In this document: positions 48,659 through 64,000 of the stretch, piece by piece
How positions within the stretch are numbered: the first letter of the stretch is position 1
Layout: each line of letters begins with the position of its first letter
NCBI RefSeq assembly: GCF_003008555.2
Contig: NZ_CP027665.1
Location: 2,480,001 to 2,544,000 of the forward strand
Length of the DNA: 64,000 bases
Direction: 5' to 3'
Source: Pukyongiella litopenaei
GTDB lineage: Bacteria; Pseudomonadota; Alphaproteobacteria; Rhodobacterales; Rhodobacteraceae
Program-made: the position numbers and the translations under genes
The notes under the pieces: generated by a model
Told to the model about the DNA's origin: nothing
The model's input: the letters and a program-made list of their open reading frames with translations, nothing else
The model's database searches: none

Positions 48659-49834
48659 ATGGCAAAGGAAAAGTTTGAACGCACGAAGCCGCATGTGAAC
48701 ATCGGCACGATCGGTCACGTTGACCACGGCAAGACGACGCTGACGGCTGCGATCACGAAGTATTTCGGCGATTTCAAGGCCTATGACCAGATCGACGGCG
48801 CTCCGGAAGAGAAGGCGCGCGGGATCACGATCTCGACCGCGCATGTGGAATACGAGACCGACGCGCGCCACTATGCGCATGTGGACTGCCCCGGCCACGC
48901 GGACTATGTGAAGAACATGATCACCGGTGCCGCGCAGATGGACGGCGCGATCCTGGTGTGTTCGGCCGCTGACGGCCCGATGCCGCAGACCCGCGAGCAC
49001 ATCCTGCTGGGCCGCCAGGTCGGCATTCCGAAGATCGTGGTGTTCATGAACAAGGTGGACCAGGTCGACGACGAGGAACTGCTGGAACTGGTCGAGATGG
49101 AGATCCGCGAGCTGCTGGACAGCTACGAGTATCCGGGCGACGACACCCCGATCGTGGCCGGCTCGGCGCTGGCGGCGCTGGAGGGCAACAACCCCGAGAT
49201 CGGCGAGAACAAGATCCGCGAGCTGATGCAGGCGGTCGACGACTATATCGACACGCCCGAGCGCGCGGTGGACCAGCCGTTCCTGATGCCGATCGAGGAC
49301 GTGTTCTCGATCTCGGGCCGCGGCACGGTTGTGACCGGCCGTGTGGAACGCGGTGTGATCAACGTGGGCGACGAGATCGAGATCGTCGGCATCCGCGACA
49401 CCCAGAAGACCACCTGCACCGGTGTCGAGATGTTCCGCAAGCTGCTGGACCGCGGCGAGGCCGGCGACAACATCGGCGCGCTGCTGCGTGGCGTCGACCG
49501 TGACGGCGTCGAGCGCGGCCAGGTGCTGTGCAAGCCGGGTTCGGTGACCCCGCACACCAAGTTCGAGGCCGAGGCCTATATCCTGACCAAGGACGAGGGC
49601 GGCCGCCACACGCCGTTCTTCGGCAACTACCGCCCGCAGTTCTACTTCCGCACCACGGACGTGACCGGGACGGTGTCGCTGAAGGAAGGCACCGAGATGG
49701 TGATGCCGGGCGACAACGTGGGCTTCACGGTGGAACTGATCGCGCCGATCGCGATGGAAGACGGCCTCCGCTTCGCCATCCGCGAAGGCGGCCGCACGGT
49801 TGGAGCAGGGGTTGTTTCCAAGATCATCGAGTAA
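48659..49834 (+). CDS. tuf: Elongation factor Tu
   Basis: 391 residues. Delivers aminoacyl-tRNA to the ribosome. GTPase motifs [10 protein letters not shown], the switch [15 protein letters not shown] and NKVD are intact, and domains II and III are full length (e.g. [16 protein letters not shown] and [19 protein letters not shown]). Codon use is strongly biased, as expected. It stands alone rather than in an rpsL-rpsG-fusA operon, so it is probably the second (tufB-type) copy. The leader repeat and an elaborate 3' structure flank it. Confidence 0.98.
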
Positions 49835-49918: not shown

Positions 49919-49944
49919 AAGGCCGCCCCGATCGGGGCGGCCTT
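49919..49944 (+). terminator. Intrinsic terminator of tuf
   Basis: A perfect 26-nt palindrome (AAGGCCGCCCCGA followed by its complement) whose plus-strand 3' end continues TTCTATG, giving a short U-tract. It lies 85 nt past the tuf stop. Confidence 0.85.
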
Positions 49945-50062
49945 TTCTATGACATCGCTCCGAAGTCTGCCGGGCGGACGAAGCTGACGTTTGCCGCGTG
50001 TGCGACCCGGGATCTGTTGACTGTGACAGGTGAGGTTTCTAGCGTCACGGGAAGGGGGATCA

Positions 50063-51073
50063 ATGATGCCGAAATCTCCGGGAGATCCAAACGGTCCACT
50101 GGTGAAGCCCACTTTGGCCGATGACCCGCAATTTCTCTATATCATTCGCTATTTGTCCAAATTGGCAACGGATCAGCCTCACATTCAGGTTGAATTTTCT
50201 GGACAGCTGGCAGAACTGGTCGCGTGCAAAGAAGAAGACGAAATTTCCGGAATGCGCTGGATGGAGTTCAGACTCAAGACGCCATTGGATAGAGAGGGGG
50301 CATATGAAAGCGCGGTAGGTATTTGCAAGGCCATTGAATTGACGTTCTTTGAGAGAAGAGCCGGGATCAATACAGGCGTAAACCTAAGTAGAGATGATTT
50401 GGGGGAATCCTCTGGCTGGTTGAGTCCGGCAGTTTACCAGCCAATAGTTGACCATGGGTATCAATATCAGATGACCAAGCACGGCATTGCATTCTATCAG
50501 GCAGACTCAAGTCTTGTCAGAGGCATAGTGAGCGGAGGAAGGCTTACGGTTGTAGACAAGATCGAAAAGCTCTCTGAACGTATTGTTGAGAATTTTGAAT
50601 TTGCAAAGAATATGTCTGACACCTGCATTTCAGCGATTCGAAACTTCAATCACGGGATGGCCACGGGCGACCAAATTGCTCGTTTGGCGCTTGTTGTAGC
50701 GTCGGTGGAGCATTTGTCCGATTCTGGTGGACGCTGGAGTTCAGCACAGAAGAAATTCCTGGATAAATTGGCGGACTTCACGTCTCAGTCATCGGATCTC
50801 AATGAGAAGGAAAGAAATGAGATCGCGGAACAATTGCGGAATCTCAAGGGTTACAAAGTGCGCTTGGGGTTCAGAAGGCTGTTTGAGCGACTCGGTCTAC
50901 AAGCGGAAATCAAAAACTGGCTTGACGCATATGACCAAAGGAGCGGCATTCTGCATGGCGGGGGTCTCCTTTCCAAAAAGGAAATGTCAGCCTTGGTCGA
51001 CAGGCTAACAGATCTCGCGCACAGTGTTCTTTCTGCCCAGGTTCGGTTCGAAAAAGAGACCCTGGTTTCGTAG
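50063..51073 (+). CDS. AT-rich orphan gene with a C-terminal HEPN-type RX4H motif
   Basis: 336 residues from ATG 50063 (GAAGGGGG 4 nt upstream). Base composition, estimated by eye at about 48-50% GC, is far below its neighbours and codon use is unlike theirs. The C-terminal region is helical and holds YDQRSGILHGG with Arg293 and His298 in the RX4H spacing of HEPN ribonuclease domains; the following SKKEMSALVDRLTDLAHSVL resembles the closing helix of ApeA-like HEPN proteins. The N-terminal 180 residues are unassigned. Likely acquired; a defence or RNA-targeting role is inference. Confidence 0.6.
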   Translation: MMPKSPGDPNGPLVKPTLADDPQFLYIIRYLSKLATDQPHIQVEFSGQLAELVACKEEDEISGMRWMEFRLKTPLDREGAYESAVGICKAIELTFFERRAGINTGVNLSRDDLGESSGWLSPAVYQPIVDHGYQYQMTKHGIAFYQADSSLVRGIVSGGRLTVVDKIEKLSERIVENFEFAKNMSDTCISAIRNFNHGMATGDQIARLALVVASVEHLSDSGGRWSSAQKKFLDKLADFTSQSSDLNEKERNEIAEQLRNLKGYKVRLGFRRLFERLGLQAEIKNWLDAYDQRSGILHGGGLLSKKEMSALVDRLTDLAHSVLSAQVRFEKETLVS

Positions 51074-51186
51074 CGACCGACACTTGTGTCGATCTTTGTT
51101 CAGTGAGCCCTGTTTTATTGAGACTTTCGAGGTCTCCAGGTCAGTTGTGGAAAATGGCGAAGGCCAGTTCTCACTTGCCGATCCTC

Positions 51187-51303
51187 ATGCAGGGCGATGC
51201 ACCACCGCCACCCGCAGCCAATGTCGGCTACCTGCGCGACCCGCAGGGCAACAAGATCGCCCTGTTCTCGAACGATCCGAACGAACCGGGGCGAGACGGG
51301 TAG
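51187..51303 (+). pseudogene. C-terminal remnant of a glyoxalase/VOC family gene
   Basis: The frame ending at TAG 51303 reads NVGYLRDPQGNKIALFSNDP near its end, the typical last strand of VOC-fold proteins (G-Y-x-x-D-P-x-G-N-K). Only about 38 codons remain, roughly a third of a normal gene, and the GC content rises sharply where it begins. The upstream part appears to have been replaced by the AT-rich DNA. Confidence 0.6.
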
Positions 51304-51358
51304 CCCGGGTTTGCATCAGGCCATGCCCGCGGCGGTTACCGAACCGTCCGCGCGTGGC

Positions 51359-52060
51359 CTAGCCCGCCGGCACCCACGGTTCCCGCCCGACCATTCGGTC
51401 GGCCTCGGCGGTGATCTCGTTCAGCAGCGTTTCGATACTGACCCGCAGCCGTTCGATCTCGGCGTCATCGGCCTTGCGGGGGACGGTTTCGGTCCATTCC
51501 CGGCAGAGGAACACGCCGTCGGTCCAGGGCCGTGGCAGCAGCATCCTGTCCCAGGTGCCGGCCTCGGTGCCGTGGCGGGCGGAACAGGCGATCACGAAGA
51601 CGCGCTTGCCCGAGCTGCGCGCCCAGACCAGCGGCACGGTGGAGGAAATCCGTTCCGGCCCGCGAGGCCCGTCGGCGGCGATGCCGATCGAGATGCCCTG
51701 CCTGATCTTGCCCAGCACCTCGCGCGACAGCGCGACGTGGCGCTTGTGGCTGGACATGGCGATCGTGTCCATGCCGAACAGCTTCTGCACCCGGCCCACC
51801 ATGCTGCCAGCCCGCGCCGCCGAGGTGATCGAACAGATCTGGCCCTTGTCGAGCGGAAAGAAATAGGGCGACAGCGCAAGCCGCTGATGCCAGAGCACCA
51901 CGATCACCGGTTCGCCCTGGTCCAGCAGCGCGTCGAGCGGCTCGTAGCCGATGCGGCGCCATGTGCCGGTGCGGTGGACCATGCGGATATAGGACGCGAC
52001 GCGCCGGGCGACCCAGTTCAGGACACCTTCGCTGTCGGCAATCTTCTTTCGCAAACTCAT
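51359..52060 (-). CDS. DUF374 lysophospholipid acyltransferase-like protein
   Basis: 233 residues. VIVVLWHQRLALSPYFF, SITSAARAGSMVGRVQKLFG, GISIGIAADGPRGPERI and VPLVWARSSGKRVFVIACSA match the DUF374 family, related to lipid A-type acyltransferases. It may acylate a lipid or lipopolysaccharide precursor; the substrate is unknown. It lies between the glyoxalase remnant and the tRNA, opposite to tuf. Confidence 0.85.
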   Translation of the reverse strand: MSLRKKIADSEGVLNWVARRVASYIRMVHRTGTWRRIGYEPLDALLDQGEPVIVVLWHQRLALSPYFFPLDKGQICSITSAARAGSMVGRVQKLFGMDTIAMSSHKRHVALSREVLGKIRQGISIGIAADGPRGPERISSTVPLVWARSSGKRVFVIACSARHGTEAGTWDRMLLPRPWTDGVFLCREWTETVPRKADDAEIERLRVSIETLLNEITAEADRMVGREPWVPAG

Positions 52061-52179: not shown

Positions 52180-52255
52180 AGGGGTATAGCTCAGTTGGTA
52201 GAGCGACGGTCTCCAAAACCGTAGGTCGCGGGTTCGAACCCTGCTGCCCCTGCCA
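52180..52255 (+). tRNA. tRNA-Trp(CCA)
   Basis: 76 nt with CCA encoded. Acceptor stem AGGGGTA/TGCCCCT, D-loop AGCTCAGTTGGTAGAGC, anticodon loop CTCCAAA with anticodon CCA, and T-loop GGTTCGAACC are complete. In this group tRNA-Trp normally precedes secE and nusG; here neither follows. Confidence 0.95.
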
Positions 52256-52346
52256 TTCCAAATCCGGTTCAGATCGATCCCGCGGCGCAGGCCGTGTTCT
52301 GGCGGTGCTCTGGCGGTCCGCCTGTCCCGCGCGGGCCGCAACGCAG

Positions 52347-52372
52347 ATGGGCCCGCCGATCGGCGGGCCCAT
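52347..52372. terminator. Palindromic hairpin downstream of the NCS1 permease gene
   Basis: A perfect 26-nt palindrome (ATGGGCCCGCCGA and its complement) 19 nt past the permease stop. No U-tract follows on either strand, so termination would rely on the stem alone. Confidence 0.5.
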
Positions 52373-52390
52373 GTGGTGGTGTTGTGCGCC

Positions 52391-53770
52391 TCAGCTGTCG
52401 AGGAACCGCCGCGCGCCCGGCATCAGCTGCATCAGCAGGTAGTAGCTGATGCCGGCGGGCAGCAGGCTCGCATACCAGGACACGCCCGAGAAGGTCAGCG
52501 CCGCCGCCACCCCGAGCGCCATCGCGATCACGGCGGCCCAGTTGACGCCCTTGTAGGGGCCTTCGGCATCATAGAGCTTGTCGAGGTCGAGCGTCTGTTT
52601 GCGCAGCACGAAGTAATCGACCACGAGGATCGCGAAGATCGGTCCGAGGAAGGCCGAGTAGGTCTGGATGAACAGGTTCAGCCCGGCCGCCGATTCGTCC
52701 TTGACCAGTTCCCAGGGGAAGGTCGCAAAGGCCAGCAGGCCCACGATCACGGCCGAGGTCTTGAACCTGATATTGAACACGTCCATCAGCGCATAGGCCG
52801 GCGGCACGACGTTGTTGAGGATGTTGGTCGTCACCTGCGCGAAGGCGATGAACAGCAGGGTGATCACCAGCAGCAGCTTGTTGTCGACCGCGCTGGAAAA
52901 CACCTTGATCGGATCGACCTCGCCGGTGGCGCCGGACACCATCAGCCCGATCAGCCCCATGAACAGCGTCGCGGGCAGGATCGAGTTGGCATAGATCACC
53001 ACCTGCCGCACCGGTCCCACGTCGCGGCGCAGTTCGCGCGAATAGTCGGACACGTTCAGCATCATCGTGCTGTAGACGCCCAGAAACAGCATCGTCGCCC
53101 CCCAGAACGGCGCGCCCCAGGTGCCTTCGACATTGACGAGATTGGCCGAGATTTCCTCGCCATATTTGTTGATGACGCTGAAGAACATGTAGATCAGCGA
53201 CCCGATGATGAAGACCGAGCCGATATTCTCGAGCCACTTGATGCCGTGGAAACCCAGCACCGACAGACCGATCTGCAGGAACTGGAAGCCGACGAAGAAG
53301 ACGATCATGTTGTCATAGCCGAACAGCGTCGCCGAAACGAGATTCAGCGCGCCGGCGCCGATCCAGCTCTGGAAACCGAACCAGACGATGGCCGGAACCG
53401 ACCGGACCAGGGCCGGAATGCGGGTGCCGGTGAACCCGAAGGCCGACCGCGCCTGCACCATGAACGGGATGCCGTATTTATGCCCGGCCTGACCGTTGAT
53501 CATCAGCGCGATGCCGATCACGGTACAGCCGATCGCGATGGCGACGAAGGTCTGAAACAGGTTCAGGGTGCCAACCAGGCCCGACCCGACCGTGAAGGTC
53601 CCGATCGAGACGCAGCCGCCGAGCCAGGCGAACAGGTAGGACCAGGGGTCCATGATCCGCGTGTCCTGGGGGGCGAGGCTTTCCTCGCCGATGGCCTTGT
53701 CCTCGATATGCCGCACATGATCCCTGTGCGGCTCGAAGACATTGTCCGGTTTTGACTCCGTTGCCGTCAT
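52391..53770 (-). CDS. NCS1 family nucleobase/hydantoin permease
   Basis: 459 residues, about 12 transmembrane helices. NCS1 features: FAWLGGCVSIGTFTVGSGL in helix 1, KYGIPFMVQARSAFGFTG, AIVWFGFQSWIGAGAL and NVVPPAYALMDVFNI. Family members take up nucleobases, allantoin, hydantoins and vitamin precursors by Na+ or H+ symport. The adjacent hydantoin-racemase homologue favours a hydantoin or allantoin-like substrate. Start MTATESKPDN at 53770. Shares the minus-strand run with the racemase gene. Confidence 0.9.
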   Translation of the reverse strand: MTATESKPDNVFEPHRDHVRHIEDKAIGEESLAPQDTRIMDPWSYLFAWLGGCVSIGTFTVGSGLVGTLNLFQTFVAIAIGCTVIGIALMINGQAGHKYGIPFMVQARSAFGFTGTRIPALVRSVPAIVWFGFQSWIGAGALNLVSATLFGYDNMIVFFVGFQFLQIGLSVLGFHGIKWLENIGSVFIIGSLIYMFFSVINKYGEEISANLVNVEGTWGAPFWGATMLFLGVYSTMMLNVSDYSRELRRDVGPVRQVVIYANSILPATLFMGLIGLMVSGATGEVDPIKVFSSAVDNKLLLVITLLFIAFAQVTTNILNNVVPPAYALMDVFNIRFKTSAVIVGLLAFATFPWELVKDESAAGLNLFIQTYSAFLGPIFAILVVDYFVLRKQTLDLDKLYDAEGPYKGVNWAAVIAMALGVAAALTFSGVSWYASLLPAGISYYLLMQLMPGARRFLDS

Positions 53771-53789
53771 GGTCTCCTCCTCCGTTGCG

Positions 53790-54488
53790 TTACTTCTGGT
53801 TGGGCCGGGAATAGGCGTTGATCTTGCTGGTCTTCAGCCCGCACCCGACAAGCGCCTCGATCATGCGCGTCGCCACGCTGACCCCGTCGATGACCGGGAT
53901 GCCCGTCTCCTCGCTCAGCCATGCGGTGAGATCGGCCATGCCGGCGCAGCCCAGCACGACGGCTTCGCAGTGATCTTCCTCGATGGCGCGCAGGATCTCG
54001 TCGCGGACCTTCTCGCGCGCGTTCGATTCCGGTTCCTCCAGCGCAAGCACCGGGATCGCGGCCGAGCGGACCTTGCGGCACTGGTGCGACAGCCCGTAGC
54101 CGTGGATCAGGTGTTCGATCACCGGCACCGACCGGGGCAGGGTCGTGACCACCGTGAACGAGGTCGCGAGCATGCTGGCGGCCTTCACGGCGGCCTCGCA
54201 GATGCCCAGCACCGGGCCGGTCGCGATTTCGCGGCAGGCGCCGATGCCCGGATCGTCGAAACAGGCGACGACGATGCCGTCGACGCCCGCGTCTTCGGCG
54301 CGTTGAACGCAGGCCAGCAGGGCGGGAACAGCCATGGATTCGTCGTAATGTCCTTCGATGCTGGCCGGGGCGCCGGTTCCGGTCGCGCCGGTGATGGTGA
54401 CATCCGCGCTGGCCGCCTGCCTGGCAGAGTCGACGATTTTCCGGGTCATCGATTCGGTGGAATTCGGATTCACTACGAGAATGTTCAT
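53790..54488 (-). CDS. Asp/Glu/hydantoin racemase family protein
   Basis: 232 residues. NILVVNPNSTESMTRKI at the N-terminus, GIVVACFDDPGIGACRE (first catalytic Cys) and AVVLGCAGMADLT (second catalytic Cys) give the two-cysteine racemase arrangement; the family includes hydantoin and allantoin racemases and arylmalonate decarboxylases. Start at 54488. It is 19 nt upstream of the permease and divergent from the first GntR gene, across a palindrome that may be the operator of both. Confidence 0.9.
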   Translation of the reverse strand: MNILVVNPNSTESMTRKIVDSARQAASADVTITGATGTGAPASIEGHYDESMAVPALLACVQRAEDAGVDGIVVACFDDPGIGACREIATGPVLGICEAAVKAASMLATSFTVVTTLPRSVPVIEHLIHGYGLSHQCRKVRSAAIPVLALEEPESNAREKVRDEILRAIEEDHCEAVVLGCAGMADLTAWLSEETGIPVIDGVSVATRMIEALVGCGLKTSKINAYSRPNQK

Positions 54489-54510
54489 TCGGCCTCCTTC
54501 GTTATCAAAA

Positions 54511-54522
54511 ATTGTTAACAAT
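54511..54522. promoter_or_regulatory. Perfect palindrome between racemase and GntR genes
   Basis: ATTGTTAACAAT is a perfect 12-nt inverted repeat in the 130-nt divergent intergenic region, the size and AT-richness expected of a GntR-family operator. It lies 23 nt from the racemase start, so bound protein could block both promoters. Confidence 0.5.
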
Positions 54523-54618
54523 AATAGATGACATCTGGCAAGGCATTTGTTTCTATCGGATTGTCAACGGATTGCCGGGGCCTTACATCAGTATGCCCAT
54601 CAGCAAACAGGGACCCCG

Positions 54619-55290
54619 ATGAGCGAATCGGTAGAAGAAACGATCATCGCTGCCGTCATCGACGCGATTGCCGAGCAGCGGCTGCCCGCGGGAACCAAGC
54701 TGGGCGAGAAGGAGCTGAGCCAGCTGTTTTCGTGCAACCGGGCCAATGTCAGGCGTGCCCTGGCATCGCTCGCGGCGCAGCATGTGGTCGAACTGCGCCC
54801 GAACCGCGGTGCCTTCGTGAGCTCGCCGACGCCGAAAGAGGCGCAGGATGTTTTCGAGGCGCGCCGGGCGATCGAGCGGACCATCGCCCGCCAGGCGGCC
54901 GGGCGCGCGTCGGCTGATGAAATCGCGCGCCTGCGTCAGAATATCAGCGACGAGGTGCGCGCCCATGCGGCCGGCAACCAGCCCGAGGAACTGCGCCTTT
55001 CGCGGGCCTTCCATCTCGATATCGCGCGGGTGGCCGGCAACGCGGTGCTCGAGCGTATTCTGGCCGAGCTGACCATGCGCACGACCCTGATCCTGGGGCT
55101 GTACGGGACGGGCGAGGCCTCGAACTGCGCCAAGGACGATCATGGCTCCATCGTCGATGCGCTCGAGGCGGGGGATGCCGAACGCCTCGTGACCGAGATG
55201 GACGAACACCTGAAACATCTCGAGGCAGGGGTGAGTTTCAGCCAGCCGAAATCACCGGCCACCGGGCTGCGCAGCCAGCTGTTTGTCTGA
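54619..55290 (+). CDS. GntR family regulator (FadR/FCD type), first
   Basis: 223 residues. Winged helix 10-70 with EKELSQLFSCNRANVRRALA and RPNRGAFVSSP; C-terminal FCD effector domain with AFHLDIARVAGNAVLERIL and the metal-binding HGSIVDALEAGD. Such regulators sense small organic acids. It is divergent from the racemase/permease pair and upstream of the ABC importer, so it likely controls one or both. ATG 54619 chosen. Confidence 0.92.
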   Translation: MSESVEETIIAAVIDAIAEQRLPAGTKLGEKELSQLFSCNRANVRRALASLAAQHVVELRPNRGAFVSSPTPKEAQDVFEARRAIERTIARQAAGRASADEIARLRQNISDEVRAHAAGNQPEELRLSRAFHLDIARVAGNAVLERILAELTMRTTLILGLYGTGEASNCAKDDHGSIVDALEAGDAERLVTEMDEHLKHLEAGVSFSQPKSPATGLRSQLFV

Positions 55291-55645
55291 GCGACCGGTG
55301 ATGACCGGTCAGCGGGCGTTGCGGCTGCAAGCGCCGCAGGCGCGGGCATGATGCCCGCCCGCGAACACCGGTATCAGCCGCCCCTGCCGCAGCCGTAACC
55401 CCCACATGGCGACGCAATGACGGAAGGCGGCTCCGCAGGGCGGATGCCGTCCGCGCTGGCGCGGCGGCACCCCAAATGGCTGCATCCGGTCAACGCCGGG
55501 TGCTGCGAAACCGCCCTGACTCGCGCAGATTCACCCTCCGTGACATAGCCGTTCTGAGATATGAGATATCAGATTGCCAAACTGATACATCAGATGTAGG
55601 TTACCCGTGCCGGAGAGTTCAACTTGCGAATGAGGAGTTTCGCAC
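55291..55645. other. Intergenic region between first GntR gene and ABC operon
   Basis: 355 nt without a gene. It contains a GCGGGC-ATGAT-GCCCGC hairpin near 55342-55358 that may terminate the GntR transcript, and the palindromic operator pair at 55554-55593. No open frame with coding character was seen. Confidence 0.5.
55554..55593. promoter_or_regulatory. Inverted-repeat operators upstream of the ABC transporter
   Basis: CTGAGATATGAGATATCAG (55554-55572) is an imperfect palindrome, and CTGATACATCAG (55582-55593) is a perfect one with core CTGAT-AC-ATCAG. Both lie within 60 nt of each other and about 50-90 nt upstream of the substrate-binding protein gene, consistent with a GntR binding site pair. 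Confidence 0.55.
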
Positions 55646-56665
55646 ATGTCGTCCATCAGCCGTCGTGATCTACTGGCAGCCGGGGCTGCCGCCACCCTGA
55701 TTTCCTCCTTCGCGCTGCCCGCCGGGGCCGGGGATCGGCCCAACATAGAATTTCTCTATTCGCCGTTTGCCGACTACGCGCCGTTCTTCGTTGCCAAGGA
55801 AATGGGGTTCTTCGATGAATTCGGGGCCGACGTGACGCTGTCGCCCAAGGGCAATACCGCCGAGACGATCCAGATGCTTGCGTCGGGCAATATCGAAACC
55901 GGCGGTGCGACATGGGGGGCGGGCCTGTTCAACGCGCTCAGCCGCGGCGCGACCGTTTCGATCATCGCCACCCTGGCCCGGATGCCCGACACCGTCCCGT
56001 CGCCGTCGCCCTTCATGGTCTCGCAGGCGGCATGGGACGACGGGATCCGGACCGTTGCCGATCTCAAGGGCAAGCGCGTCGGCATCCCCGGTCCCGGCGG
56101 CTTTGGCATGTATTCGGTCGCCAAGGCGCTCGAGAAGGGCGGGCTGACGATCGACGATGTCGAGGCGGTCTATCTGCCGCCGCCGGCCACCGCCGCCGCC
56201 TTTGCCAATGGCGCGCTCGAAGCGGGCTGGAGCATCGAACCCTTTGCCGGAAAGCTCGAACAGGAAGGGCTGGGCCGCCGGCTGGTCGAGGATCATACCT
56301 TTGGCACCGAGCTTGGCCTGATCGCGTTCAACCAGGATTTCGTCACCGACAACGAGGATGCGGTGGTGCGGTTCATGGCGGGCTATCTCAAGGCCGCCCG
56401 GCTGCTCGACAATGGCGGCTGGACGGATGACGGGATCGTCGACATCGTGGCGAAGTACACCGGGACCGAACCCCAGACCCTGCGCGGTATCCCCTACACG
56501 ATCCGGTCGCAGGACGGGGCCATCGACATGGCTTCGGTGCGCGAGCAGGAGGCGTTTTTCCGCGCCCGCGGCGCGCTGGAATACGAGGGTGACGCCGATA
56601 TCGACGCGGTCTATCGGCGCGATCTGCTGAAACGCGCCAACGATCTCGTCGCGAGCAAGCCGTAA
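55646..56665 (+). CDS. ABC transporter substrate-binding protein, NMT1/SsuA-like
   Basis: 339 residues with a Tat-type signal peptide (SSISRRDLLAAGAAATL, twin Arg at 6-7). The mature part has NIEFLYSPFADYAPFFVAKEMGFFDEFGADVTL, GNIETGGATWGAG and PGPGGFGMYSVAKALEKG, matching the NMT1/THI5-like and sulfonate-binding family used for thiamine precursors, sulfonates and pyrimidines. Binds the imported compound in the periplasm. RBS GAGGAG precedes ATG 55646. First gene of a three-gene importer operon. Confidence 0.9.
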   Translation: MSSISRRDLLAAGAAATLISSFALPAGAGDRPNIEFLYSPFADYAPFFVAKEMGFFDEFGADVTLSPKGNTAETIQMLASGNIETGGATWGAGLFNALSRGATVSIIATLARMPDTVPSPSPFMVSQAAWDDGIRTVADLKGKRVGIPGPGGFGMYSVAKALEKGGLTIDDVEAVYLPPPATAAAFANGALEAGWSIEPFAGKLEQEGLGRRLVEDHTFGTELGLIAFNQDFVTDNEDAVVRFMAGYLKAARLLDNGGWTDDGIVDIVAKYTGTEPQTLRGIPYTIRSQDGAIDMASVREQEAFFRARGALEYEGDADIDAVYRRDLLKRANDLVASKP

Positions 56666-57468
56666 TGGCGGTTGCGCTTGAATCGGCCCGCCCGGCCGCG
56701 GCAGCGGTGGCGCGGCCCATGATCGAGGTCGACCGCCTGACCAAGGCCTTTTACGACAGTGAAGGCGACCGGGTGACGGTGGCGGTGTCGGATTTCAGTT
56801 TCTCGGTGGCGCAGGGCGAATTCGTCTGCATCGTCGGGCCCAGCGGTTGCGGCAAGACCACCGTGCTGCGCGTGCTTGCCGATCTCGAACAGCAACTCAG
56901 CGGCGATGTGAAACTGCACAGTGCCATGCCCCCGGCCATGGTCTTTCAGGAGGCCTCGGTCCTGCCCTGGCTGACGGTGTCCGAGAACATCGCCCTGCCG
57001 CTGAGCCTCAAGGGCGTTCCCCGCGCGCAGCAGGACGCGCGGGTCGGTGAATTGCTGGCGCTGACCGGGCTGGGAGATTTCGCCAGGGCCCGGCCGCACC
57101 AGCTGTCCGGCGGCATGAAACAGCGGGTTTCGGTGGCGCGCGCGCTGGCCGAAGACCGCGAGATCCTGCTGATGGACGAACCGTTCGGCGCGCTGGACGA
57201 ACAGACGCGGCTGGTCCTGCAGCAGGAGTTGCTGCGGATCTGGGGGGCGACCCGCAAGACGGTGGTCTTCATCACGCACAGCGTCGACGAGGCGCTGACG
57301 CTGGCCGACCGCGTGCTGGTGATGTCGCCGCGCCCGGGCAGGCTGGTGGCCGAACTGACAGTGCCGTTCGAACGGCCGCGCGACGTGGTCGAGATGCGGC
57401 GCGACAAGCGGTTCTGGGACATGACCTATGAGGTCTGGAACCTGCTGGCCGCACCGGGAGAGGTTTGA
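56665..57468 (+). CDS. ABC transporter ATP-binding protein, SsuB/TauB-like
   Basis: 267 residues. Walker A GPSGCGKTTVLRVLADL, signature LSGGMKQRVSVARALA, Walker B REILLMDEPFGALDEQ and H-loop FITHSVDEAL are all present. It energises the importer with the adjacent binding protein and permease. Its ATG overlaps the upstream stop by one base (TAATG). Confidence 0.95.
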   Translation: MAVALESARPAAAAVARPMIEVDRLTKAFYDSEGDRVTVAVSDFSFSVAQGEFVCIVGPSGCGKTTVLRVLADLEQQLSGDVKLHSAMPPAMVFQEASVLPWLTVSENIALPLSLKGVPRAQQDARVGELLALTGLGDFARARPHQLSGGMKQRVSVARALAEDREILLMDEPFGALDEQTRLVLQQELLRIWGATRKTVVFITHSVDEALTLADRVLVMSPRPGRLVAELTVPFERPRDVVEMRRDKRFWDMTYEVWNLLAAPGEV

Positions 57469-57469
57469 C

Positions 57470-58282
57470 ATGACGACATCCAGAGCCCTTACCGAAGACG
57501 AGCTGCGGCGGCTCAAGGCGCCGGCCCGGCGGGAACGGGTGTATCGTTTCGCCTCCTATTTCAGCCCGTTGCTGCTGTTGCTGCTCTGGGAACTGTCGAG
57601 CCGGTTCAACCTGATCGACCAGCGTTTCTTTCCTGCGCCGAGCGCGATTGCCGGAACCGCCTGGGGCATGGTGGTGAGCCTCGAGCTTTTCGACCATATC
57701 GGGGCGACGCTGCGCCGGATCGGGGTCGGCTATGCGATGGGGGCGGTGCCGGGGATCGTCCTGGGCCTCGTCCTGGGCCTGTCACGGCCGGTGCGCCGGC
57801 TGTTCGGGCCGATCTTTGCCGCGCTCTACCCGGTGCCGAAGATCGCGATCCTGCCGCTGATCCTGCTGATCTTCGGTGTTGGCGATGCCTCGAAATTCGT
57901 TCTGATCGCCATCGGCGTGTTCTTCCTGACCTTCTACAACACCATGGGCGGGGTGATGCAGATGCCGCAGATCTACATGGATGTCGCGAAAAACGCCGGC
58001 GCCACCCGTTTCCAGACCTTTCGCCGTTTTGCGCTGCCGGCTGCGCTGCCAAGCATCTTTACCGGTCTGAAACTGGCCGCCGGGTCATCCTACATCATCA
58101 TTGCAGCGGCCGAGTTCCTGGGCGCGCGCAGCGGTGTCGGTTTCTTCATCTGGGCATCGTGGCAGACCTTTGCCGTGTCGCGGATGTTCGTCGGCATCGT
58201 CGTGATCTCGGTCATGGGCTATCTCACGATCCTCGCCATCGAGGCGCTGGAGCGGCGTTTCGTGCCCTGGGCCAAGCATTGA
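57470..58282 (+). CDS. ABC transporter permease, SsuC/TauC-like
   Basis: 270 residues, about six transmembrane helices. The ATPase-coupling EAA motif appears as VAKNAGATRFQTFRRFALPAALPSI, with GVGDASKFVLIAIGVFFLTFYN just before. Completes the SsuABC/ThiXYZ-type importer. ATG 57470 follows directly after the ATPase gene. Confidence 0.93.
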   Translation: MTTSRALTEDELRRLKAPARRERVYRFASYFSPLLLLLLWELSSRFNLIDQRFFPAPSAIAGTAWGMVVSLELFDHIGATLRRIGVGYAMGAVPGIVLGLVLGLSRPVRRLFGPIFAALYPVPKIAILPLILLIFGVGDASKFVLIAIGVFFLTFYNTMGGVMQMPQIYMDVAKNAGATRFQTFRRFALPAALPSIFTGLKLAAGSSYIIIAAAEFLGARSGVGFFIWASWQTFAVSRMFVGIVVISVMGYLTILAIEALERRFVPWAKH

Positions 58283-58306
58283 CGGCGGCAGGGGGGTCAC
58301 ACGCAC

Positions 58307-59041
58307 ATGACACCGGTTGATACCAGCCCGGCCGCGACTGCCGCCGCGACTGCCCCGGTCACCGTATCCGAACGCATCCATCTGGCGCTGCGCCAGGAGA
58401 TCATGCGCTGCGAGATCGCGCCGGGCGCGACGCTGGACGCGGCCGCGATCGCCCGCCGTTACGGGGTCTCGAAAACGCCGGTGCGCGACGCCATGCAGCG
58501 GCTCGCCGCCGACGGGCTGGTCACGATCCTGCCGCGCAGCGGTTACCGGGTCGCGGCGATCACCTTTCAGGCGGTCCACGAGATCCTCGACCTGCGGGCG
58601 GCCATCGGCCCGCATATGGCGCGGCAGGCGGCACGCTATGCCGGGCCGGACGACATCGCCGGGATGCGCCGGATCGTGGCCGAATATGCGGCGCCGATGG
58701 ATGTGGGTGCGATGCAGCAGGTCGCGCGGCGGTTTCATCTGGCCATCGCCCGATGCAGCCGCAACAAGCGTCTTGTCACCCTGTCGGAAGGCCTGTTCGA
58801 CGAGCTCGAGCGCCTGTTGCGCTTTGCCATCGATTTCTCGGTCAAGGCGGGTGAGCATTCCGACGAACATACCGCGCTGGTCGACGCGATCGAAGCGGGC
58901 GACGGCGACCGCGCCGCGGCGATAGAAACGGACCATATCCGCCACAGCCGGGAGTTTCTGATCGAGCGCCTGATGACGCTGGGCTACCTGTCGGAAAGCG
59001 AAATCCGCGGCGGTGGCGCAGGCCGGGGAGAGCGGCGATGA
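58307..59041 (+). CDS. GntR family regulator (FCD type), second
   Basis: 244 residues. Winged helix about 22-85 (EIMRCEIAPGATLDAAAIAR, YGVSKTPVRDAMQRLAADG) and a FCD domain with RRFHLAIARCSRNKRLVTL and HTALVDAIEAGDGDRA. It lies 25 nt after the importer permease and overlaps the dehydrogenase-like gene, so the operon probably contains its own regulator, distinct from the divergent GntR at 54.6 kb. Confidence 0.9.
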   Translation: MTPVDTSPAATAAATAPVTVSERIHLALRQEIMRCEIAPGATLDAAAIARRYGVSKTPVRDAMQRLAADGLVTILPRSGYRVAAITFQAVHEILDLRAAIGPHMARQAARYAGPDDIAGMRRIVAEYAAPMDVGAMQQVARRFHLAIARCSRNKRLVTLSEGLFDELERLLRFAIDFSVKAGEHSDEHTALVDAIEAGDGDRAAAIETDHIRHSREFLIERLMTLGYLSESEIRGGGAGRGERR

Positions 59042-59952
59042 TCGCGGCCGTCGATGCGGTGGACCGGTTGTCCTCGGCGCTGGGTGGCGGTCCGGCCGCA
59101 CGGCTGGCCGCCTCGGCGCTGATCGAGGCCGATGCGCTGGGCCAGCCGCGTTTTGGCATTGCCATGCTCGGGGAATGGACGCCCGATCTGCGCCCGCCGC
59201 AGATGGGTGCGGACATGCAGGCCCTGCGCTGGCTCGACTGTTCGGGCCGTTTCGCGCCGCTCGCGGTGGCGACGGCCACGCTGGATCTGGCGGCGGCGGC
59301 CCGGCGCTTCGGTGTCGCGGCCGTGTTCCTGCGCGGGGTTCGCGGGTTCGGCCGGCTCGCGCCCTTCGTGCGTCATCTCGCCGATGCGGGCCTTGCCGGC
59401 CTCGCGGGTGCCGAGGGGCCACCATTCGTTGCGGCGCATGGCGGCACGCGCCCGGTGATCGGCACCAACCCGCTGGCATTTGCCATCGGGCAGGGCGCGG
59501 ACCGCGTGGTCATCGATGCCGCCACCAGCAGTTGCACCATGGCCGATATCCGCGAGGCCCGCGCCGATGGTAGCCCGTTGCCAGAGGGGATCGCCCTGGA
59601 TGGCCAGGGGCGGCCGACCCGCGTCGCCGCCGAGGTTGCCGCGCTGCTGCCGCGCGGCGGGCAGGTCGGGTCGCTGCTGGGTCTGGTGGTCGAACTCATG
59701 GCCGGTGTCGCGGGCGGCGGCCGGGGCGACCCGGCCGGGCGCGGCGTGTTCCTCGTCGCGTTCGATCCCGATGCGGCGGGCCGGGAAACCGATTGGCGGT
59801 CCGGGCTTGCCGGGCTTCGGCGCGACTGGACCGGGGGCGGCGGATACTGGCCGCGCGGGGGCGGGTTGCCGCCCGATGCCGCGCTGGACGCAGATTTCGA
59901 ACGCCGGCTCGACGGCTATCTCGCCGCCATGCGTGGCACGGAGGACCGGTGA
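59038..59952 (+). CDS. Ldh2/malate-lactate dehydrogenase family homologue lacking the active-site histidines
   Basis: 304 residues, short for the family (usually about 335-350). The fold is recognisable from ASALIEADALG near the N-terminus, AHGGTRPVIGTNPLAFAIG and RVVIDAATSSCTMADI. The two histidines of the family are gone: the SHG loop after the first motif reads PRFG, and the SNHFG loop reads RGFG. NAD-binding residues are partly kept. It may be catalytically altered or non-enzymatic. ATGA overlap with the GntR gene; the next gene starts at its last base. Confidence 0.7.
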   Translation: MIAAVDAVDRLSSALGGGPAARLAASALIEADALGQPRFGIAMLGEWTPDLRPPQMGADMQALRWLDCSGRFAPLAVATATLDLAAAARRFGVAAVFLRGVRGFGRLAPFVRHLADAGLAGLAGAEGPPFVAAHGGTRPVIGTNPLAFAIGQGADRVVIDAATSSCTMADIREARADGSPLPEGIALDGQGRPTRVAAEVAALLPRGGQVGSLLGLVVELMAGVAGGGRGDPAGRGVFLVAFDPDAAGRETDWRSGLAGLRRDWTGGGGYWPRGGGLPPDAALDADFERRLDGYLAAMRGTEDR

Positions 59953-61310
59953 TGCCGCAGGATCATTCAACCACCCGACCCGAACAGGTGACACACGGTA
60001 TGACGACCAATCCCGCCTCCGACCCCGTTTTGTCGATTGTCCCCGCCGACGGTCTGATCGACGAGGAACGCCGGATCGTGGTCACCGGGCTTGCCCTCGA
60101 CGAACTGGTCGCAATCTCCGCCCGCACGCGGCGATCGGGCGGGAGCGATTGGGACAGCCAGGTGACCTGTCTGGCCGACGCGCAGGGGGTGGTCGATCTG
60201 ACCCGTGACGCCCCCGTCGGCGGCGATTATGCCGAGGTTTCGCCGATGGGCCTGCTATGGGGTCAGCATCCCTCGGGCGGCGCGGGCGACGAGATCTTTG
60301 CCGACGATGTCATGCAGCCCCTCGTGACCACGCTGACCGCCGAGACCGCCGATGGTCGCCGCGCCGGGGCCGAGCTGATCCAGCGTTTCGCGGCACCGGG
60401 CGTGACGCGGCGCGAGATCCGCGAAGAAGGGCTGGTGGGCACGCTGTTCACCCCGGCCGGGCCCGGTCCGCATCCGGTTGTCGTGGTCCTGAACGGTTCG
60501 GGCGGCGGCATCAACGAACCGCGCGGCGCGCTTTTGGCATCGCGTGGCTACCAGGCCTTTGCGCTCGGCTATTTCAAGGCGCCGGGTCTCTCGCCCTATA
60601 TCACCGAAACGCCGCTCGAATACCTCGAAACCGGGCTCGGCTGGGTGCGGCGGACCCTGTCCCCCCGCAACGGTTTCGTGGCGGTCAGCGGTCAGTCGCG
60701 CGGCGGCGAACTGGCCCTGCTGATGGGCGCGACATTCCCCGATCTCGTCTCTGCCGTGATCGCCTATGTGCCCGGCGCAATGGTCCACGGCGCGCAGGGC
60801 GCGGGCGATCCCGCGCGTGGCGGCTGGCACGGGGTGACCTGGACACGGGGCGGCGCGGCGCTGCCCCACCTGTGGCAGGACAACGCGGCGGTGCATTGGC
60901 ACCCCTGGGCGGGCGATGCCCCGCCCGACCGCCACCATTCGGTTTTCTTCGAGGGGCTGAAGGATCGCGACCTCGCGGCGCGCGCGCGCATTCCGGTCGA
61001 GAACATCACCGGCCCGGTGCTGCTGATCTCGGGCCGCGACGACCGGGCCTGGCCGTCCAGCCTGTATTCCCGCATGGTGGTATCGACCCTGCGCCGGCAC
61101 GGCCATCCGCATCTGGTCCGCCACCTGGATTTCGACGACGCCGGTCACGCGATCAACCTGCCCTTCGTGCCGACCACGCAGCTTGCCCGCGAGCATCCAG
61201 TTTCCAAGGTGCCCTATACCAGCGGCGGCACGCCGTCGGGCAATGCCGGGGCCGATCGCGGGTCCTGGCGTGGCGTGCTCGAGTTTCTGGACGAGATCAC
61301 CGGCCGCTAG
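59952..61310 (+). CDS. Acyl-CoA thioester hydrolase/BAAT-like alpha/beta hydrolase
   Basis: 452 residues. The N-terminal domain (about 30-130) matches the BAAT N domain (WDSQVTCLADAQGVVDLTRD, EVSPMGLLWGQHP); the C-terminal alpha/beta hydrolase has the elbow VSGQSRGGELALLMG with Ser249, GFVAVSGQ just before it, and GHAINLPFVPT carrying the likely His. Where mammalian BAAT has Cys, this has Ser, so ester or amide hydrolysis is likelier than conjugation. ATG 59952 has GGAGG 7 nt upstream. Cotranscribed with the DUF1684 gene. Confidence 0.85.
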   Translation: MPQDHSTTRPEQVTHGMTTNPASDPVLSIVPADGLIDEERRIVVTGLALDELVAISARTRRSGGSDWDSQVTCLADAQGVVDLTRDAPVGGDYAEVSPMGLLWGQHPSGGAGDEIFADDVMQPLVTTLTAETADGRRAGAELIQRFAAPGVTRREIREEGLVGTLFTPAGPGPHPVVVVLNGSGGGINEPRGALLASRGYQAFALGYFKAPGLSPYITETPLEYLETGLGWVRRTLSPRNGFVAVSGQSRGGELALLMGATFPDLVSAVIAYVPGAMVHGAQGAGDPARGGWHGVTWTRGGAALPHLWQDNAAVHWHPWAGDAPPDRHHSVFFEGLKDRDLAARARIPVENITGPVLLISGRDDRAWPSSLYSRMVVSTLRRHGHPHLVRHLDFDDAGHAINLPFVPTTQLAREHPVSKVPYTSGGTPSGNAGADRGSWRGVLEFLDEITGR

Positions 61311-61366
61311 CCGCCGAGTTTCCAGGCGCAAGCCGACCCCCGAACTTCTTTGAAAGGACGACGAAG

Positions 61367-62257
61367 ATGCCCACGAAAGAACATCTGGAAGGCCAGTGGC
61401 GCGAATGGCGCTATGCCCATGTCGCCACGATGTTCCGCCCCTATGGCTGGACATCGCTGGTTGCCCAATACTGGCTGGAAGAGAACGACCGCGATGTCCG
61501 TTTCGACCTGTTGCCCGGACTTTGGTCGGTCAGGGACGGGCGGGTCATGTTCACGCCGCCCGCCGAGGGACCGAGCCTGTCGGTGAACGGTGCATATCCG
61601 GACCGCCCGGTCGAGATCGTTCCGGGACGCAACCAGACCTATGGTCACGGTGACAGCGTGCCGGTCTATTCCGGCGTGAACGAGGTCGAAACGATCGTGC
61701 GCACCAGGGATGACGGCGAACGGCTATTCGCGGTCCGCGTGCGCGACCCGAACCGGGCGACGCGCCCGGAGGATGCCGGTGTGACCGCGTTCGACTATGA
61801 CCCGGCATGGCGCATTCCCGGCGTGTTCACACCGACCGCGCGCGTCGATTACGAGGCCGAGACGGTCGAGGCCGGCGTCCGCGAAACCACCCCGCGCATG
61901 GGGACCTTCGCGTTCGAGCGGAATGGCAAACGCTATGACCTGGTGATCATCGGCAAGGATACCCCGAACGGCATCCAGCCGGTCGCGCATGTCCGCGACC
62001 AGACCAGCGGTCCGGTCACCTACGGGGCCGGCCGCGTCGTCGAACTGCAATTCACCGACGCTGAAAACAGCCGCATCGACTGGATCGATTTCAACTATGC
62101 GGTCGCGCTGCCCTGCGCCTTCACGAATTTCGTCACCTGTCCACTGGTGCCCGCCGAAAACCAGCTCGATTTCGAGGTGCTCGCGGGCGAGAAGCGCCCG
62201 ACGGAAACCGTGGCGCGGACGATGACCTATCAGGCGCGGGCGGATGCGGTGGGCTGA
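61367..62257 (+). CDS. DUF1684 family protein
   Basis: 296 residues. The C-terminal half has the DUF1684 pattern: FTPTARVDYEAETVEAGVRE, RMGTFAFERNGKRYDLVII, TYGAGRVVELQFTD, IDFNYAVALPCAF and CPLVPAENQLDFEVLAGE. Function is unknown but the family is often found with catabolic genes. No signal peptide. ATG 61367 is preceded by GAAAGGACGACG; it follows the hydrolase gene by 56 nt. Confidence 0.85.
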   Translation: MPTKEHLEGQWREWRYAHVATMFRPYGWTSLVAQYWLEENDRDVRFDLLPGLWSVRDGRVMFTPPAEGPSLSVNGAYPDRPVEIVPGRNQTYGHGDSVPVYSGVNEVETIVRTRDDGERLFAVRVRDPNRATRPEDAGVTAFDYDPAWRIPGVFTPTARVDYEAETVEAGVRETTPRMGTFAFERNGKRYDLVIIGKDTPNGIQPVAHVRDQTSGPVTYGAGRVVELQFTDAENSRIDWIDFNYAVALPCAFTNFVTCPLVPAENQLDFEVLAGEKRPTETVARTMTYQARADAVG

Positions 62258-62365
62258 CGCGGGCCGACCCGCGCCAAGGGTCGAAATCGCCCGGTTGCCC
62301 GAGCCTGTCAGGCAGATTGAAACCGGTTCCGGTTTTCCAATACCATCGGAATTATGCTGAACCAC

Positions 62366-62390
62366 GACGCCACCCTCGCCGGGTGGCGTC
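62366..62390. terminator. Hairpin between DUF1684 gene and the second NCS1-like gene
   Basis: GACGCCACCC and GGGTGGCGTC form a perfect 10-bp stem with a 5-nt loop (TCGCC), 109 nt past the DUF1684 stop. No U-tract follows, so termination is possible but not certain; it may instead act as a leader structure for the next gene. Confidence 0.4.
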
Positions 62391-62485
62391 GGCGTGGCGC
62401 GGCGTGGGAGGGAACAGGTCCGAAGTCGTGAGACCGGCCAGAGCGGATCCGGCAGCATCGGCGGTTTGCCAGGAGGTGTCTTGTA

Positions 62486-64000
62486 TTGAAGAACACGCAT
62501 TCTCCGCTGCTTCGGTCGTATCACTCCTGGATCGCCAATGAATCGCTCGAGGATTATTCGCTGCGATATGCGGCGCGGTCATTTCGCAAATGGTCCCCCT
62601 TCATCATCGCGAACACCGCGCTTGGCGGCATATCCTTTCTCGCGCTCGAAGCAATCGGTGCGGCGATCACGCTGAGCCACGGCTTTGCCAATGCCTTTCC
62701 GGCGATCCTGGTCGCGATCGTGTTCATCTTCATCGCCAGTTTCCCGATCGCGTATTACTCCAGCCGCTACAATATCGACATGGACCTGCTGACGCGCGGC
62801 GCGGGGTTCGGGTATATCGGCTCGACGATTACGTCGCTCGTCTATGCCACGTTCACGTTCATCTTCTTCGCGCTCGAAGGCGCCATCATGGCGCAGGCCC
62901 TGTTGCTGCTGGCGGGAATTCCGCTGGTCGTCGGCTACCTGATCTCGTCCATCGTCATCATTCCGATCACCTTCATGGGCGTTACCATGATCAACCGCGT
63001 TCAGCTGGTCAGCCAACCGGTCTGGGTCGCGATGCAGCTGCTGCCGTTCGCCTACATCCTCTACGAAGACCCGGAGACGATCCGGCGGTGGACCGGGTTC
63101 ATCGGCACGCAGGAGGGCGGGAGCGCGTTCAACATCCTGTCATTCGGCAGCGCGCTTGGGATCCTGTTCGCCCTTTCCATCCAGATCGGCGAGCAGGTGG
63201 ATTACCTGCGGTTCCTGCCCGAGGAGAACCGGAAGAACAGGTCCGCCTGGTGGGCGGCCGTCATTCTCGCCGGCCCCGGCTGGATACTGGTCGGCGGGCT
63301 GAAGATCCTCTTCGGCAGCTTTCTCGCGGTGCTGGTCATTTCGGCCGGCCAACCCAAACAAACCGCGCTGGAACCGGTCCACATGTATATCCAGGCCTAT
63401 GAATACGTCTTTGCCGATCCGGGGCTTGTGCTGGCGGCGGCCACGATCTTCGTCATCATCTCGCAGGTCAAGATCAACATAACCAACGCCTATGCGGGTT
63501 CCCTGGCCTGGTCCAATTTCTTTTCGCGGGTGACGCTCTATCACCCCGGCCGCGTCGTCTGGCTGTTGTTCAACATCATGATCTCGCTCCTGCTGATGAT
63601 GCTGGGGGTGTTCGACACGCTCGAGGTGGTGCTTGCAATCTACTCGGTCATTGCGGCGGCCTGGGTCGGCGCCATCTTTGCCGATCTCGCGATCCTCAAG
63701 CCGCTCGGCATCAGCCCGTCATTCACCGAATTCAAGCGGGCCTATCTGCCCGATTTCAACCCGGTGGGATGTGGCGCGATGGCGCTGGCCTCGCTGGCCG
63801 CGTTCTTCGTCTTTGCCGGGTTTTTCGGTGAGCTTGCCCAGGCCTATGCCGCGCCGATGGCATTTTTCATCGCCTTGCTCACGGCGGTGCTGATCGGCGT
63901 CCTGACCGGCGGGCGCTATTACATTGCCCGTCCCTCGGTGGCGCTGGCCGGGCCCGGGGATGCAAATGTTCGCTGCGAGTTGTGCGGGTTCGAATATGAA
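62486..64000 (+). CDS. NCS1-like transporter domain protein, cut by the window edge; possible sensor fusion
   Basis: 505 codons without a stop to the window end, from TTG 62486 with AGGAGGTG 7-9 nt upstream. About 12 hydrophobic segments; the N-terminus (SLEDYSLRYAARSFRKWSPF) and QVKINITNAYAGSLAWSNFF resemble NCS1 purine/cytosine permeases. The chain then turns polar and reaches CELCGFEYE with Cys497 and Cys500 as the window ends. In NCS1 or SSS transporter-histidine kinase fusions a Cys-rich zinc-binding segment of this kind follows the transporter and precedes PAS and kinase domains. Whether a kinase follows cannot be seen. Confidence 0.65.
   Translation, partial: MKNTHSPLLRSYHSWIANESLEDYSLRYAARSFRKWSPFIIANTALGGISFLALEAIGAAITLSHGFANAFPAILVAIVFIFIASFPIAYYSSRYNIDMDLLTRGAGFGYIGSTITSLVYATFTFIFFALEGAIMAQALLLLAGIPLVVGYLISSIVIIPITFMGVTMINRVQLVSQPVWVAMQLLPFAYILYEDPETIRRWTGFIGTQEGGSAFNILSFGSALGILFALSIQIGEQVDYLRFLPEENRKNRSAWWAAVILAGPGWILVGGLKILFGSFLAVLVISAGQPKQTALEPVHMYIQAYEYVFADPGLVLAAATIFVIISQVKINITNAYAGSLAWSNFFSRVTLYHPGRVVWLLFNIMISLLLMMLGVFDTLEVVLAIYSVIAAAWVGAIFADLAILKPLGISPSFTEFKRAYLPDFNPVGCGAMALASLAAFFVFAGFFGELAQAYAAPMAFFIALLTAVLIGVLTGGRYYIARPSVALAGPGDANVRCELCGFEYE

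Follow-up and report, generated by a model that had tools for sequence, protein, structure and literature searches.

Enzymes of the HEPN class cut RNA and are commonly deployed against viruses. Their active site has the form R-x4-6-H with a polar residue following the arginine, and numerous families also have an acidic residue in an earlier helix (PMC3710099). The closest described system to the protein analyzed here is ApeA, whose N-terminal domain, ApeA-NTD1, was described as approximately 300 amino acids long and mostly beta (PMC3710099). A stretch of 64,000 nucleotides from Pukyongiella litopenaei, referred to here as the window, includes a gene that an earlier note had singled out because it is near half GC in a DNA of about two-thirds GC, codes for the sequence YDQRSGILHGG, and is located between the tuf terminator and a scrap of a glyoxalase gene as if it had been inserted. 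The features of the region are listed in Table 1. We give about even chances to the interpretation that this gene is a horizontally acquired, self-contained single-gene HEPN endoribonuclease effector, probably anti-phage, where both the ribonuclease activity and the defence role are presumed.

Table 1. Coordinates of the features in the window (position 1 is the first nucleotide of the window)
Feature	Position	Strand	Description
tuf intrinsic terminator	49919-49944	+	perfect 13-bp inverted repeat followed by T's; bounds the inserted block on the left
AT-rich foreign block	50020-51180 (approximate limits)	.	GC ~0.46-0.51 vs 0.65-0.70 on either side
HEPN-motif gene	50063-51073	+	336 amino acids/codons, intact; no family assigned at cut-off by Pfam, NCBIfam or PADLOC
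N-terminal block W-x2-FR...A-x-E...R-x-G...G	50258-50377	+	codons 66-105; ungapped in both relatives; predicted strand then helix
HEPN-like domain, all-helical	50618-51070	+	codons 186-336; blastp E about 5e-16 to L002 here; predicted helix order
E216 codon	50708-50710	+	invariant acidic residue in a predicted helix that precedes the motif, the arrangement of HEPN active sites
R293-S294-x3-H298 (R-x4-H)	50939-50956	+	end of the predicted penultimate helix; G after H298
VOC/glyoxalase 3′ remnant	51211-51300	+	last 29 of 138 codons (51211-51297), 79% identity; right bracket
DUF374 gene, complete	51359-52060	-	between the VOC remnant and tRNA-Trp
tRNA-Trp	52180-52255

A low-GC gene in the tuf/tRNA-Trp gap

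The GC content of the gene, which is preceded by a Shine-Dalgarno-like stretch (GGAAGGGGGA) 5′ of its ATG, is 0.487 compared to 0.669 for the whole window. This value corresponds to a z of -4.9 with respect to the other long ORFs in the window (mean 0.667, sd 0.037), and all the lowest-GC 1-kb segments of the full 64 kb fall at this gene. The GC profile confirmed an AT-rich block with the limits shown in Table 1. Both elements that bracket the gene, the terminator and the VOC remnant, are real, and the remaining ~80% of the VOC gene is missing. When 394 genomes of the bacterial family were searched at the protein level, only the window's own genome was found to have the gene, and the other 393 gave no homologue. 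A foreign origin of the gene is supported by the composition, the truncated VOC neighbour, and the absence of the gene from the 393 other genomes of the family. No att-type flanking repeat was found, the 3′ end of tRNA-Trp is unique within the window, and no Rfam RNA was identified other than the tRNA. An imperfect 18-nt direct repeat at positions 49834 and 51302 (83%) was discarded as chance-level by a rough estimate.

The usual gene order in relatives from the same bacterial family is parC, lipoprotein, tuf, gap, tRNA-Trp, (secE), nusG. The distance between tuf and tRNA-Trp ranges from 632 to 7602 bp in the 18 relatives whose gap was read at either end (L044 and 17 of L150-L187). Because both the length and the cargo differ across these 18 relatives, the gap is a variable accessory spot. 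The cargo includes acetyltransferases, IS transposase, lipoproteins, methyltransferases, and membrane proteins, identified by eye except where aligned. The DUF374 gene is located within the gap in G165, where it directly neighbours tuf with nothing between, and in G099, and it adjoins tRNA-Trp in G005. The HEPN gene was carried by none of the tuf/tRNA-Trp loci read in relatives.

Other characteristics of the region were observed. A hexapeptide acetyltransferase-like gene recurs by eye in the gap of several members of the bacterial family. The tuf copy in the window (48659-49834) and a second one (L188, G000:C1:2090115-2091287) code for 100% identical proteins and are ~438 kb apart, whereas the spacing is roughly 20-30 kb in the majority of relatives whose two copies share a contig. 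Unlike in most relatives read, nusG is not found 3′ of tRNA-Trp (window 52255-64000, L189); the tRNA gene is followed instead by a transporter, a racemase-like gene, GntR-like regulators, and ABC-transporter-like genes (by eye). This order suggests a rearrangement or insertion directly 3′ of tRNA-Trp. Another short AT-rich dip is present at 54400-54700 (GC 0.485-0.51), around the spacer that separates the racemase-like gene from the regulator after it.

The C-terminal domain and two distant relatives

The position of the YDQRSGILHGG sequence and the numbering of its residues R293 and H298, as described in the earlier note, are exact in the 336-amino acid ORF. Searches of Pfam, NCBIfam, PHROGs, and PDB produced no significant match for this protein, and none of the HMM libraries recognises it as HEPN. 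Comparison with PADLOC-DB 2.0.0 gave no match above cut-off, only a weak partial one to PbeC (E 0.03). Scans of the class (385 genomes) and the phylum (398 genomes) identified one clear relative, L002 (locus L023), in G532. A profile of the window protein and L002 then found a second one, L016 (locus L024), in G1203 (profile E 4.7e-11). Both relatives are distant and belong to other alphaproteobacteria, and the overall identity among the three members is only 14-20%. An order-level search around G532 covered the same genomes again. Weak matches from the class and phylum scans (L003-L014) were judged to be due to chance, since the translations read, those of L003, L004, L006-L008, and L011-L014, lack the domain. 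Single-protein scans of genome contigs, viral contigs, plasmids, and phages produced no match, and neither alignment-driven scans of the genome and viral collections nor a custom pattern run on the DNA of viral contigs added a member. Since the divergence is fast, these searches under-count the family, and its rarity partly reflects limited search sensitivity. As judged from their amino acid sequences, the window protein and the two further members found constitute a small uncatalogued family within a known superfamily.

The presence of R-x4-H alone is weak evidence because 38% of shuffled versions of the window protein contain it as well. It is, however, meaningful because it is invariant in two relatives with such low overall identity. 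L002 is homologous over the whole domain and keeps the R, S, H, and G of the motif, while L016 keeps R-S-x3-H plus an upstream V-E. Residues R293, S294, H298, and E216 are invariant in the three proteins. All three members, therefore, have the conserved HEPN motif with a polar residue after the arginine, and the conserved acidic residue, E216, is located in what the model predicts to be an earlier helix. The predicted helix order, taken from a low-confidence model, also fits the HEPN topology, with the arginine where the penultimate helix ends and the glutamic acid in an earlier one. AlphaFold models built with one and three sequences had mean pLDDT values of 41.6 and 48.4, respectively. Foldseek and VIA-align comparisons using the better, low-confidence model matched unrelated proteins, mostly helical, and no HEPN. 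The identification of the C-terminal part as HEPN is well supported, by sequence rather than by structure.

The conservation of the N-terminal block shown in Table 1 had a p of about 0.002 by shuffles, or 1/150 when every block was searched. The N-terminal homology detected by hhalign was unconvincing past a short stretch, and outside the block no homology could be demonstrated within residues 1-165. This part of the protein may act as a sensor.

The surroundings of the two relatives were also analyzed. The gene in L024 begins 433 bp from a divergent phage tyrosine integrase, past which there are toprim, AAA, and Mu-like baseplate genes. It is followed, after a 6-bp gap, by a tandem gene coding for a 345-amino acid protein (L024:8796-9833) with a sub-threshold DUF4365 match (E 0.012) around a D...QxK-like stretch. 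The two genes together occupy positions 7788-9833 of L024. The 345-amino acid protein is possibly a nuclease; it had no match in PADLOC or PDB, no nucleotidyltransferase match, and no significant Pfam match. The relative in L023 is solitary, located between metabolic genes, and AT-rich for its locus (0.534 vs 0.636). Both contexts are compatible with mobile conflict genes but do not prove defence. No defence gene was found beside the window gene, where the flanking neighbours tested had no PADLOC match.

Possible function and alternatives

With one relative next to a phage integrase, a defence role is plausible. In the mechanism that we infer, which comprises the fold, dimerisation, RNase activity, trigger, and defence role of the protein, the gene would have arrived in the permissive tuf/tRNA-Trp gap beside a VOC gene that is now reduced to its 3′ end. 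The C-terminal domain (about residues 186-336) would homodimerise, and R293 and H298 from both subunits, together with E216 and S294, would build a site that cuts RNA independently of metal. The role of the N-terminal part (about residues 1-165) would be both to keep this domain silent and to detect a trigger, of which phage infection is the likeliest. Once activated, the domain would cleave host or phage RNA, and growth or phage production would stop. Such a mechanism would be familiar in kind.

A different possibility is that the protein is an active HEPN RNase, or an RNA-binding protein, whose function is regulatory rather than phage-related, for instance in stress response or RNA processing, and that it is carried as neutral accessory cargo. 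This would be in agreement with the mostly non-defensive-looking nature of the other cargo found at the tuf/tRNA-Trp spot (acetyltransferases, lipoproteins, methyltransferases, and membrane protein, by eye) and with the relative that stands alone between metabolic genes. We consider it unlikely, since the foreign composition, the extreme patchiness, and the phage-integrase neighbour of one relative suit conflict genes better. The gene could also be a HEPN toxin from a toxin-antitoxin pair, or from a plasmid or phage maintenance module, that lost its partner, in which case it would not be an effector that defends through a sensor of its own. HEPN toxins are abundant in HEPN/MNT pairs (PMC7641770). 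The tightly linked second gene in L024, 6 bp away, could be thought of as such a partner, but its product has no significant Pfam or nucleotidyltransferase match (the DUF4365 match, E 0.012, is sub-threshold), and neither an MNT-like nor another plausible antitoxin ORF exists beside the window gene. Furthermore, the typical HEPN toxin of these pairs looks smaller than a 336-amino acid protein with a separate N-terminal part. These features make a toxin origin quite improbable. Finally, an orphan helical protein with R-x4-H by chance, an idea that the frequency of the motif in shuffles, the empty library searches, and the poor models would permit, is very unlikely given the homology to L002 across the whole domain (E about 5e-16) with R, S, H, and G retained, the conservation of R-S-x3-H and the upstream V-E in L016, and the agreement of predicted helix order and residue placement with HEPN.

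If the window gene does code for an active HEPN effector, a small family of probable defence RNases is being overlooked by the current models of Pfam, NCBIfam, PADLOC, and PHROGs, and the tuf/tRNA-Trp gap would be a compact place to search for single-gene cargo in this bacterial family. We propose, tentatively and with some doubt, that the three proteins are the first members of a HEPN defence family, so far uncatalogued, in which a single gene brings its own N-terminal sensor, and that this family travels as cargo both in phage-like elements and at the tuf/tRNA-Trp spot in alphaproteobacteria.

Comparison with ApeA and other HEPN systems

The earlier note had related the protein to ApeA, an assignment that was not supported. 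Pfam HEPN_Apea (PF18739) had no match to the window protein by hmmscan at E<=10, and a search of its own genome for this family was negative at E<=1e-4. When the C-terminal part was aligned by hhalign to the HEPN domains of an ApeA set consisting of two HEPN_Apea ORFs from G457 and twelve ApeA-type plasmid proteins, 130 columns were collinear and brought the catalytic R/H pair and the acidic position into correspondence, at a borderline E of 0.053; four of 200 column shuffles scored as high. A kinship to the ApeA HEPN domains is suggestive only. The protein was not filed as ApeA because it lacks a PF18739 match and its N-terminal part is different. This part is ~165 amino acids long, as opposed to the ~300 of the mostly beta ApeA-NTD1, is predicted with low confidence to be mixed alpha/beta, and has no Pfam match. 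The ApeA proteins compared are also longer, 437-480 amino acids vs 336. Features in common are the single-gene organization and a C-terminal HEPN with R-x4-H, where the motif is preceded by an acidic helix as well as by one with S-L-R..R-L.

No sequence relation of the window protein to HEPN ribonucleases with solved structures was detected. In contrast to HepT, RnlA, PrrC/RloC, Csm6, and Cas13, no MNT, ABC ATPase, CARF, or CRISPR partner was recognised in or beside the gene. Unlike in HepT/MntA, the adjacent genes do not include a nucleotidyltransferase-type antitoxin, the flanks being tuf, the VOC remnant, and DUF374. What the window protein does share with these ribonucleases, following the criteria in PMC3710099, is the R-polar-x3-H at the end of a predicted helix together with an acidic residue upstream.
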